DNA of 64,000 nt from Solitalea canadensis DSM 3403. GTDB lineage: Bacteria > Bacteroidota > Bacteroidia > Sphingobacteriales > Sphingobacteriaceae. Where the stretch lies: positions 3,732,669 to 3,796,668 of the forward strand of contig NC_017770.1 in NCBI RefSeq assembly GCF_000242635.2, given 5' to 3'. The translations under genes were made by a program, and so were the position numbers. Shown here piece after piece: positions 57,798 to 61,359 of this stretch (its first letter is position 1; every line of letters begins with the position of its first letter). The notes below the pieces were generated by a model. The model had not been told where the DNA came from. It worked only from the letters and a program-made list of their open reading frames with translations, and ran no database searches.

Positions 57798-57849
57798 AAA
57801 AAAGGCTTTAGCTAACACTCGAGTAAAGTGTTGGCTAAAGCCTTTTTTC
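57798..57849. terminator. Bidirectional hairpin terminator
   Basis: GGCTTTAGCTAACACT pairs with AGTGTTGGCTAAAGCC (one mismatch) between A6 on the left and T6 on the right. It separates two convergent genes. Confidence 0.9.
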
Positions 57850-57902: not shown

Positions 57903-60353
57903 CTATCTTCTTCTTACAAAATCTCTCAAATAACTACATTCATTAACTGCTGTAACATAGAATGGAGTAGTTGAATAGTTCTTTTTCAGTTCAGCGAAAT
58001 ACTTATTATTGATCAACATTAAATAATACTTCCTTGCTGCAATATCATTTTGCTCGCTCCAGTTTTCAACATCGTAAGGAACATTGGGATACTTTACTCT
58101 GGAGTTTAAACATTTAGCTGCCATAAATGTACATTTAGCTTTCAGGTTATTATCCGTTGTCAATTTCAGTGCTTTCAGGTAATACTGCTCAGCAGTATAG
58201 TTGAAATAGTAATCCTTTAGGTAAGGTAAATCTGTTTTACTGTTAAATTCTCTATCGGTAGTAGACCAGTAATAGTTAACCAATAACCACGAATTTCCGT
58301 TATAACTCATGTTATAAAATCCGTTGGCCATCTGATAATAACAGAAAGCTGCATTCTTTGGATCCTCCTTCGCTTTTTTCTCAAATGCAATCATTGTTTG
58401 TGCAAACGATAGCTTCGTAAATTTCTTTGTATCGCGATGAGTTGGAGCATGTGTATCAGTAATCAAATCAACAAATGAATTGGCTGCCAGATAGGTTTTG
58501 TAAGGTTCATCCTCAAAATACTTTGCAGGTAACTTTTTAAAAGCCACAACTGCTTTTGAGAAATTATATTCACGCAAATAACAGGTTCCCAAAAGCTCAA
58601 ACAGAAAATCATTACCCACTGCATTTAAGGTATTGGTCATTAGCTGATGATATTCTGTTTTAGTAGCATTGTTTTTTACTTGTATTAACTTTTCTACTTC
58701 CGCAGAGTTCATGCTGTTTCGAAGAAAGTCCACCGAGGTCCAGATTGTCCAACGGATTGAATTATCCTTTTTTGCTTTTTCAATCATTTGTGTTGAAACC
58801 ATTTCACTTTGAAGCACACATAGTGCTGCACTTACCCGATCTTTCTGACTCAAATATTTAGGTTGAAGGATATTCAACATCAAATACTTATAAATCTTGG
58901 TAAACGGCAAATCTGAGTCCCAGTTCTCTTTCTTTGAAGATAACTCTTGCTGACGTTTTTCTTCTAACCAATTTAATGAAGGGTAAATTTTAGCTTCAAA
59001 ACTTGCATCAATTGTTTGCTGCTCATTAATCGTAATCAACATTCGTAGCACTTCAAACTGATCGCGAACTTTAGCACTCATTTTCATCCCCTCAGCTTGC
59101 TTTAACGATGCTTTAGCCGCAACTAAATCGCGGCGCATAAATTTGATATAGGCTCCTGAGATTTTCCAAAGTGCAGGCTCCTTTACCTTATTATCATTCG
59201 CCACATTATTACAGAATGTATAAAGACTGTCGGCGTACTTTTCCTCGATCTTTAATGACGATGCTTCAACGATTCCATAAGTAGTTAATCGTAGTGAATC
59301 CTTAGGGTTAGCAAGAGCCAATGATGGCGACATATAAGAGTTTTCGAGCTTTGATATTTCACGAACAAGTAATACATCCAGTGTTGGAACGCGAGGGTCA
59401 AGTTTGTACATTTTTTCCAATTGTTTCAACTCATTGCCAGCGCTCCCCAAACTTTCAACTCCTAAAAAATTAGCTTTTTCTGTATTATTCTTACATAAGG
59501 CAAGTACATTATTCTGGTTATACTTATCGTACACCGATAGATATAGCACATTTTGATAGGCCATGATGCGTTTATTTTTACACTCGCTAAAAACGGTTGA
59601 AAACAGGTAGGCACTCTCTTCTTTCTTACCCACTTTACGTAAGGCCCCTGCTTTTAAAGCCAATGCCCAATAATACACCGTGCTCTCACTTTTATATGGA
59701 GCCACATTCGATTCAAAAAGTCGCAAACATGCTTCGTAATTTCCACTGTAGTGAGCTAACCGGCATAATTGAAAGCCATAACGCAATTGTAGATAATTGT
59801 CTTTTTTTACTGTTGCAGCTGCAGCCTCCCCTTCCTTTATTAAAGCATCCATAGCTTCAGTATTCGGTTGTTGAGGATCCCATTCATTATAGGGCATATT
59901 TACATAAGGCTCACAACGTTTAGCAAAAAGCAGGTAATCCAATGCTGCACTGTTCTTCTTTTTCGCCAAGGCCACTGCAAATCCATTATTTTTCAGACTA
60001 TCCGGCCAATCGCTTTCTTGCTTATTTTTAAGAATATTTAAAGATTCTTCATCATTGTAATAAATAATCCCTGCTATAATTGGACCATCGACAGATTCTG
60101 TTTTAAGGTATTTTTTCCATTCTTCCGTATTCTGCATCACATCACTATAAGGTTCTTCATAGTCATATAAACTTTGATAAGCGATATAATAGAAAGGCTT
60201 ATAGTCAGGATCGCCGGCTACATGGTTATTAAAAAAGGTAACCCGGTCGTCGTAAGGGTCTTCCCACCCTCCACAGGCTATACCGTAAATTACCGCGCCG
60301 GTAATAAGTAAAAAAATACTACTAAAAACTACTGTATACTTTTTCAATTTCAT
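57903..60353 (-). CDS. Large conserved Bacteroidota lipoprotein with helical-repeat (TPR-like) body, unknown function
   Basis: The protein of 816 residues starts with a lipoprotein signal (VIYGIACGGW, Cys27). The start of the mature part, CGGWEDPYDDRVTFFNNHVA, is of a style I have seen repeated in Bacteroidota. The body is helical with repeats such as CRLAHYSGNYEACLRLFESN, YWALALKAGALRKVGKKEES and LLGTCYLREYNFSKAVVAFK that look like degenerate TPRs. Its 5' end overlaps the upstream lipoprotein gene by 32 bases, so the two are coupled. No enzyme motif is seen. Confidence 0.8.
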   Translation of the reverse strand: MKLKKYTVVFSSIFLLITGAVIYGIACGGWEDPYDDRVTFFNNHVAGDPDYKPFYYIAYQSLYDYEEPYSDVMQNTEEWKKYLKTESVDGPIIAGIIYYNDEESLNILKNKQESDWPDSLKNNGFAVALAKKKNSAALDYLLFAKRCEPYVNMPYNEWDPQQPNTEAMDALIKEGEAAAATVKKDNYLQLRYGFQLCRLAHYSGNYEACLRLFESNVAPYKSESTVYYWALALKAGALRKVGKKEESAYLFSTVFSECKNKRIMAYQNVLYLSVYDKYNQNNVLALCKNNTEKANFLGVESLGSAGNELKQLEKMYKLDPRVPTLDVLLVREISKLENSYMSPSLALANPKDSLRLTTYGIVEASSLKIEEKYADSLYTFCNNVANDNKVKEPALWKISGAYIKFMRRDLVAAKASLKQAEGMKMSAKVRDQFEVLRMLITINEQQTIDASFEAKIYPSLNWLEEKRQQELSSKKENWDSDLPFTKIYKYLMLNILQPKYLSQKDRVSAALCVLQSEMVSTQMIEKAKKDNSIRWTIWTSVDFLRNSMNSAEVEKLIQVKNNATKTEYHQLMTNTLNAVGNDFLFELLGTCYLREYNFSKAVVAFKKLPAKYFEDEPYKTYLAANSFVDLITDTHAPTHRDTKKFTKLSFAQTMIAFEKKAKEDPKNAAFCYYQMANGFYNMSYNGNSWLLVNYYWSTTDREFNSKTDLPYLKDYYFNYTAEQYYLKALKLTTDNNLKAKCTFMAAKCLNSRVKYPNVPYDVENWSEQNDIAARKYYLMLINNKYFAELKKNYSTTPFYVTAVNECSYLRDFVRRR

Positions 60354-61359
60354 TTGTTTGATAGTTGTTTAATATGGAAGAATCGAGGTGAAATAAGACT
60401 ACATGGATATTGTCATTCTGAATACGGGAAGAGCAAAATTCAGCTGCATTTAAAACATCTGAAATCGTATAGCTTTCATCTCGGATCACTTCACCTTTTT
60501 TGAATGAATATCCTTTCAAATTTACATCATTTAGCACTTTATAGAGTGTTTTACCCTGCTTTTCGAAGTAATTTTTATTGTCAAGATCTGTTGAAGAAAG
60601 TTTTCCCAATAAGCCGGCATAAAGTTCATTCCTGAAAAGAACCGACCAGGAAAATAATGGGAAGGCGATATCAAGCTTTATTGGATATTTACTTAACGGT
60701 TGCAAATAAGATTCAATGGAGCGTTGATCAATAATTGAGTTATGATCACCATATCGCCTCAAATCGCCCATGTTATAGCACATTAATAAGCCTTTATCAA
60801 CCGGAGGAATCCCTGTTTGAGTTTGGTATTTAATCTGATGCATCCGAATTGTTGCTGACAATTCTTTAGATTTCATGAAACTGTGCTTCTTTAATTCGGT
60901 TAATAGCAGAAAATACCGATCGCGTGAATTTCCGGACCAATCACAATCAATTTGAACTTCTGCAGGATGAATTTGTTGCAATTCACATTGTTTTTTCACA
61001 AAGTGAATAATATTACCTGCAAGCTCTTTTATCGTTAGGCTGTCTGCGTTAAGTATTGTTTTATTGGTAATGTACACAACCGGAATTGCATTAATAGAAC
61101 GACTGACCGTGTCCTTAAATTTCATTGGCGAAATAGGCCTGGCAGCTTTTTGTACATCGTCCCAATCCACATCCAAAAAACGCAAATAAAGATTGTTTGC
61201 ATTCAGCTTAGCAATCGTTTCCTTTTCTTTCTGATTTAACTCAAATGAGGTTTTCCAATAGTAAAATCCTCGATGAACTACTCGGTCTGATTGATTATGA
61301 CAGGATGCAATGGAGAAAAGAATAAAGAGAAATAAAAAAAGAAAATATCTGTTTTTCAT
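60322..61359 (-). CDS. Conserved Bacteroidota lipoprotein, possible TIM-barrel (GH-like), unknown function
   Basis: The protein of 345 residues has a lipoprotein signal (FSIASCHN, Cys20). The mature part begins GFYYWKTSFELNQKEKE and has NNLYLRFLDVDWDD, AIPVVYITNKT, and VQIDCDWSGNSRDRYFLLL. The alternating strand and helix pattern and the strand-end acidic motif IDCDW recall glycoside hydrolase barrels (GH18-like), but this is only a resemblance. Its stop lies inside the start of the TPR-like lipoprotein gene. Substrate and function are unknown. Confidence 0.78.
   Translation of the reverse strand: MKNRYFLFLFLFILFSIASCHNQSDRVVHRGFYYWKTSFELNQKEKETIAKLNANNLYLRFLDVDWDDVQKAARPISPMKFKDTVSRSINAIPVVYITNKTILNADSLTIKELAGNIIHFVKKQCELQQIHPAEVQIDCDWSGNSRDRYFLLLTELKKHSFMKSKELSATIRMHQIKYQTQTGIPPVDKGLLMCYNMGDLRRYGDHNSIIDQRSIESYLQPLSKYPIKLDIAFPLFSWSVLFRNELYAGLLGKLSSTDLDNKNYFEKQGKTLYKVLNDVNLKGYSFKKGEVIRDESYTISDVLNAAEFCSSRIQNDNIHVVLFHLDSSILNNYQTNEIEKVYSSF

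Follow-up and report, generated by a model that had tools for sequence, protein, structure and literature searches.

A conserved pair of overlapping genes in Bacteroidota encodes a predicted GH18-type barrel lacking the catalytic glutamate and a predicted TPR-like solenoid

The stretch of DNA analysed here (the window) comprises 64,000 nucleotides of the genome of Solitalea canadensis DSM 3403 (contig NC_017770.1, positions 3,732,669 to 3,796,668), and our subject is a pair of overlapping genes on its minus strand, each present in a single copy in this genome. The first gene of the pair (60322–61359) codes for a 345-residue putative lipoprotein with a (β/α)8 barrel resembling those of glycoside hydrolase family 18 (GH18), as judged from its predicted fold and its homologues. 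The second gene (57903–60353) codes for an 816-residue protein resembling tetratricopeptide repeat (TPR) proteins, for which prediction and homologues indicate an all-α solenoid preceded by an N-terminal signal with a cysteine at position 27. A preliminary description of this DNA had reported two genes sharing 32 bases, and these are found on the minus strand at 61359–60322 and 60353–57903, with the overlap at 60322–60353. The motifs it cited are likewise in place, namely FYYWKTSF (residues 32–39), AIPVVYITNKT (91–101) and IDCDWSGN (137–144) in the barrel protein, and CGGWEDPYDD (residues 27–36) in the 816-residue protein.

The two genes constitute a genuine pair of no named family that is widespread but patchily distributed in Bacteroidota. 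In a survey of 395 genomes of the phylum, made with profiles of the barrel and of the TPR-like protein, each was found in 47 genomes and both together in 46 (Fisher p 7e-58, computed over genomes that are not independent of each other). Neither gene was found in 347 genomes; one had only the barrel, as a fragment, and one had only the TPR-like protein, as a weak match. The partner lies directly downstream on the same strand at 54 of the 58 barrel places, a count from which second pieces of already counted genes were omitted (4 of 62 barrel rows and further TPR pieces). On closer look, the second barrel place of genome G409 has its partner as well, raising the number to at least 55 of 58, and at the barrel place of genome G251 the contig ends 47 bases further on. 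Among 101 genomes of the window genome's own family, the barrel is present in 22, with the TPR partner adjoining by coordinates in 21; in the remaining one (G094), a more divergent partner is adjacent and was recovered by a wider profile. A third set comprises named loci, which are the 80 top-ranking ones among 575 confirmed places, themselves drawn from a limited list, and is not a census. Here, the partner was recognized by profile in 74 of 80 loci, and four more are situated at contig ends with the start of the partner readable; the closest named relative within this set is Solitalea agri, with 62% identity over the barrel. The expectation of a conserved adjacent pair is, thus, borne out, and the genes are nearly always adjacent rather than rarely so.

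The overlap is as constant as the adjacency. In 74 of 74 named loci measured, the TPR gene, counted from its earliest possible start codon, begins within the barrel gene and keeps one and the same frame relative to it; the overlap is exactly 35 bases long in 48 of these loci. Pairwise distances of the barrel and TPR-like proteins co-vary closely over 91 loci (r 0.95; 0 of 999 permutations), a correlation that reflects species history in part. A stronger test of co-divergence, since species history alone would partly give such a correlation, is the matching of classes within one genus, of which three genomes (G301, G409 and G436) each contain two unlike pairs. The barrel copies in these genomes are 30–34% identical and the TPR copies 18–21%; over eight loci, with the second TPR gene of genome G265 (split in two frames) omitted, barrels and TPR-like proteins sort into three matching classes, each barrel class occurring with one TPR class. 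The sequences, hence, indicate that the pairs duplicate and diverge as units, and the partnership appears to be long-lasting, with unlike copies in one genome each keeping their own partner class.

For structure prediction, alignments drew on the window proteins and on named loci chosen by eye for spread, namely 45 of the 80 for the barrel and 39 of the 74 that have a TPR gene; first alignments had combined the window proteins with sequences from the family sample (17 of 21 genomes for the barrel, 13 of 20 for the TPR-like protein). The AlphaFold model of the barrel (46 sequences, pLDDT 95.6) has the strand and helix order of a TIM barrel, with the secondary structure read by eye, and in this predicted structure the fold is that of the GH18 barrels. 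The nearest solved structures are SleL and GH18 chitinases: Foldseek gave SleL as best match (E 9.7e-11, TM-scores of about 0.5), and the top four rows of VIA-align extend over 279–303 residues at Z 19.0–19.4, with an rmsd of 4.0–7.4 and 8–11% identity. This likeness over the whole length includes both aspartates of strand 4 and the LMxY of barrel strand 6, which is aligned with GH18. A GH18-type TIM barrel is, therefore, the best reading of the model, and no named family of known function was encountered in the libraries searched.

The predicted active site departs from that of GH18 at a key position. At the end of strand 4 (Q136-I-D138-C-D140-W141-S142; positions 60934–60954, minus strand), the barrel sequence I-D-C-D-W-[ST], where aligned, falls on I-D-x-D-W-E of GH18, so that this stretch is the counterpart of the DxDxE motif with its glutamate replaced. 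Position 142 is Thr in 43, Ser in two and Asn in one of the 46 sequences, the register being taken from a profile alignment, itself weak, with 14 GH18 proteins that were selected from the same bacterial family. In agreement with this, the Pfam family Glyco_hydro_18 gave no match in any of the 18 and 46 barrel members of the two alignments at E up to 10. Eight residues around the putative cleft are invariant in all 46 sequences (D138, D140, W141, R172, Q175, Y195, R293 and E295), among them an acidic pair at a strand end, D138 and D140, such as had been suggested as a feature to look for. In TIM barrels, the active site is situated at the C-terminal strand ends, and 15 of the 30 invariant residues of the barrel are located there, compared with about five expected (p 1.6e-5), while three of 30 are at the N-terminal ends. 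Since the glutamate is lost and the cleft residues are invariant, sequence conservation argues for a site that is maintained, yet is not the GH18 site. Of the earlier proposal of a TIM-barrel glycosidase core, the GH18-type barrel stands, as supported by the model and its structural matches, but an ordinary glycosidase does not.

For the second protein, the AlphaFold model (pLDDT 87.8) contains 45 helices of at least four residues and no strand, i.e., a predicted all-α solenoid. Its structural matches are TPR and other helical-repeat proteins with Z up to 11.6, values that repeats may reach by their arrangement alone. With E values up to 10 admitted, TPR-type models match no more than six of 14 TPR-like proteins, the best of them at E 1.5e-4, and the 816-residue window protein itself yields no Pfam domain at E up to 1. 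The degenerate TPR-like repeats recognized previously fit this prediction and the weak matches of the relatives. Two further cysteines of this protein, C748 and C806, are conserved without exception in the alignment of 40 sequences and possibly form a disulfide.

Both proteins carry a cysteine at which lipidation may be predicted, with different confidence. In the barrel protein, Cys20 (codon 61300–61302, minus strand) follows S-I-A-S; it is aligned in 46 of 46 sequences, and 74 of 100 barrel relatives satisfy a strict lipobox, by which we mean a PROSITE-type rule. Cys27 of the TPR-like protein (codon 60273–60275, minus strand) belongs to the non-canonical lipobox Y-G-I-A-C and is followed by the acidic GGWEDPYDD; it is aligned in 40 of 40 sequences, but the strict rule holds in only 21 of 96 TPR relatives, a few of which are internal fragments. 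The window proteins stand outside these counts; judged by eye, Cys20 fits the strict rule and Cys27 does not, having Tyr at −4. Of the two lipoprotein signals that had both been called clear, only that of the barrel protein, hence, remains so, and Cys27 is the weaker candidate. The two families also differ just behind the cysteine (+2 to +6), where 77 acidic and no basic residues occur in the 40 TPR proteins versus 22 acidic and 76 basic ones in the 46 barrel proteins. An acidic stretch after the cysteine drives surface export in Bacteroidota according to PMC5080379, although the motifs published there differ from the stretch found in the TPR-like protein. An arrangement with a surface-exposed TPR protein and an inward-facing barrel would be only a guess.

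A further hint at location comes from a gene fusion. In all three genomes of one genus within a family sample of 61 genomes (L239, L240 and L241), the barrel follows, in a single fused protein, a putative multi-pass membrane domain of some 480 residues that contains several hydrophobic stretches. The fusion was checked and holds in all three cases, the stops seen in two genomes preceding the start methionine. In the one fusion genome that was inspected for it (G285), the TPR gene still adjoins. The fused domain has no Pfam, NCBIfam or PDB match, and relatives of it exist on their own elsewhere in that family. Such a membrane anchor would favour a periplasmic barrel, on the thin evidence of a single genus.

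Searches of further databases placed neither protein in a known system. Pfam, PHROGs and PADLOC had no match for either window protein at the limits used, and an NCBIfam match to spanin2_2 is due to chance (14.4 bits versus a cut-off of 100). Profile searches of the PDB returned short, weak matches only: those of the barrel were to a cysteine desulfurase (E 0.021) and 7v6e (E 0.25), and that of the TPR-like protein was to a redesigned chain with a TPR fold (E 0.011). Literature searches on DUF3142, Solitalea and pseudo-chitinase or GH18-like lipoproteins had no paper on the pair among the matches listed. DUF3142 itself (PF11340) matches four of the 18 and three of the 46 barrel members weakly, with an E limit of 10 and a best E of 0.0032, one match extending over residues 89–246 and two over about 60 residues, and a genuine DUF3142 fragment in genome G327 has QIDFDA where the barrel family has QIDCDW[TS]. 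However, the bit scores shown (14.3–16.1) are far below the gathering cut-off of 30, and CDC48_2, a family that evidently matched by chance, had a better score in that scan (E 0.00066, two of 46 members), so that DUF3142 may be a distant relative of the barrel, as a lead only. The DUF3142 model was matched in two of 296 genomes of the phylum, the window's own genome not being among them.

We propose, with belief and doubt about evenly balanced, that the pair forms one envelope unit, in which a glycan-binding or unconventionally glycan-processing barrel is docked on a TPR scaffold. The barrel product would be exported, most likely lipidated at Cys20, and fold into a GH18-type barrel, the cleft of which would be under strong selection although the acid glutamate of GH18 is gone; it would bind an envelope glycan or a nascent polysaccharide and might modify it by Glu-independent chemistry. 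The TPR product would be an exported helical solenoid, possibly lipidated, holding the barrel and perhaps the glycan, and the overlapping start of the TPR gene would keep both products in step, presumably by translational coupling. In our judgement, a physical complex of the two proteins is probable, binding of a glycan by the barrel could equally prove right or wrong, and catalysis by the barrel is something we doubt without dismissing it. Two conserved genes of no named family become one testable unit by this proposal, centred on a chitinase-fold protein that retains much of the cleft without the acid glutamate.

The suggested division of labour would be that of PgaA and PgaB without a constant export gene at the locus. 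According to PMC9384988, the TPR region of PgaA binds both the polymer and PgaB, and makes the latter more active as a deacetylase and as a glycoside hydrolase. The likeness is one of working only, between envelope TPR proteins having a glycan-processing partner with a glycoside hydrolase domain. In the 80 named and 20 distant loci, where neighbours were clustered and are only partly annotated, the present pair has no constant third gene that might represent a shared synthase, porin or deacetylase. No homology to PgaA or PgaB surfaced in the searches made, without kinship being excluded thereby, and PgaB-type barrels are absent from the 50 structural rows shown, which excludes nothing.

Several findings weigh against the proposed unit and have to be set beside the rival explanations. 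The pair is patchy (47 of 395 genomes), and it is not always intact: in genome G273 the barrel and TPR genes are on different contigs, far from the contig ends; in G324 there is a barrel fragment with no partner within the 9 kb read; the named loci L073 and L092 have a barrel without a partner beside it; and decayed-looking copies occur in G255, where both genes are interrupted by one stop, and in G428, whose TPR gene has two. No constant third neighbour hints at a polysaccharide system, the commonest non-pair neighbour cluster being present in 19 of 80 named loci. In 20 distant loci, the pair has differing neighbours, none of those listed being present in more than four; these loci were picked among known hits and overlap the 54 adjacent places, so that they test the neighbours and not the adjacency. 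The profile alignment of the barrel to GH18 is weak (probability 7.5 and 12.7%), and the single-sequence and global-mode comparisons reached 0.1% each, the global one in another register. Kinship with GH18 is argued from the fold. Finally, a GH18 fold without the glutamate can be a pure binding protein.

This last point leads to the possibility that the barrel is a lectin-like pseudoenzyme and the pair a glycan sensor or attachment module without any catalysis, which we hold to be somewhat unlikely and still worth serious attention. The absence of the catalytic glutamate from all 46 sequences fits this idea, and so do the structural rows 1syt, 1ljy and 2esc among the top matches (Z 18), which are chitinase-like lectins. 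Lectins of this kind (SPG-40, MGP-40 and BRP-39) have the same fold (Z about 18) and have also lost the catalytic glutamate. They differ from the barrel family, however, in that the latter keeps both motif aspartates invariant and is bacterial, probably lipidated and provided with a constant partner gene. Moreover, the invariance of D138, D140, R172, Q175, Y195, R293 and E295 is, as we judge it, seemingly more than binding alone needs. At the other end of the range is a two-part machine, in which the barrel would cut or transfer an envelope glycan without the GH18 glutamate, using a DxDx[TS] centre together with R172, Y195 and E295, on a dedicated TPR superhelix, and in which duplicated pairs would act on different glycans; this version we consider unlikely. 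Should the barrel indeed process a glycan, a very common fold would turn out to support a new chemistry, and the biology of the Bacteroidota envelope would gain a new element. Less plausible again is that the pair serves envelope biogenesis or protein handling, for instance as an outer-membrane or type IX scaffold, with the glycan site being historical. The TPR-like solenoid would suit such a role, SprE of the type IX translocon is among the better structural rows (Z 11.1, rmsd 15.0), and the acidic stretch after Cys27 resembles the acidic export signals in PMC5080379. Eukaryotic TPR proteins such as LGN (Z 11.6), however, rank level with SprE, perhaps through a common helical arrangement only, for which reason a type IX reading of the SprE row was set aside, and the patchy presence does not suit a core machine. 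That two unrelated genes merely stay together by short-range synteny is very improbable: further neighbours are indeed retained, a mazG-like and a dtd-like cluster (labels by eye) in 19 and 18 of the 80 named loci, but adjacency of the pair holds in many families with differing neighbours and also in duplicated copies.

In the window, the surroundings are compatible with a self-contained pair. Upstream, from about 61416, a gene labelled dtd-like by eye runs in the opposite direction, and downstream a plus-strand gene converges on the TPR gene. Between these convergent genes lies a stem-loop of 20 pairs with a T tail (57800–57846), reported on the plus strand. Terminator-like stem-loops are not above chance in number (one site found, shuffle mean 2.5), while the stem length of this one stands out; a run of A before it could let the hairpin serve the minus strand, too. 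The barrel and TPR genes, thus, look like a complete two-gene transcription unit. None of the promoter-like sites around the pair is outstanding, with 10 found versus 14.8 in shuffles, i.e., fewer.

Plasmids gave no barrel match at E 0.01, and the only phage match, MT837997.1 (L184 12–6263; labelled Bacteriophage sp., from human faeces), was rejected as a mislabelled bacterial piece judging by its gene content. It looks like bacterial chromosome, with a polA-like gene (by eye) followed by the gene pair, in which the homology to the TPR protein is split between two reading frames. In one genome, a gene resembling both a β-N-acetylhexosaminidase and the penicillin-binding protein PBP4B, each below the curated cut-off (L231 11089–14013), is on the strand of the barrel gene and stops some 20 bases before it. 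The TPR gene is present in three tandem copies in G251 (L260 1–7048) and in two tandem copies in Pedobacter ginsenosidimutans (L101 10962–15957).

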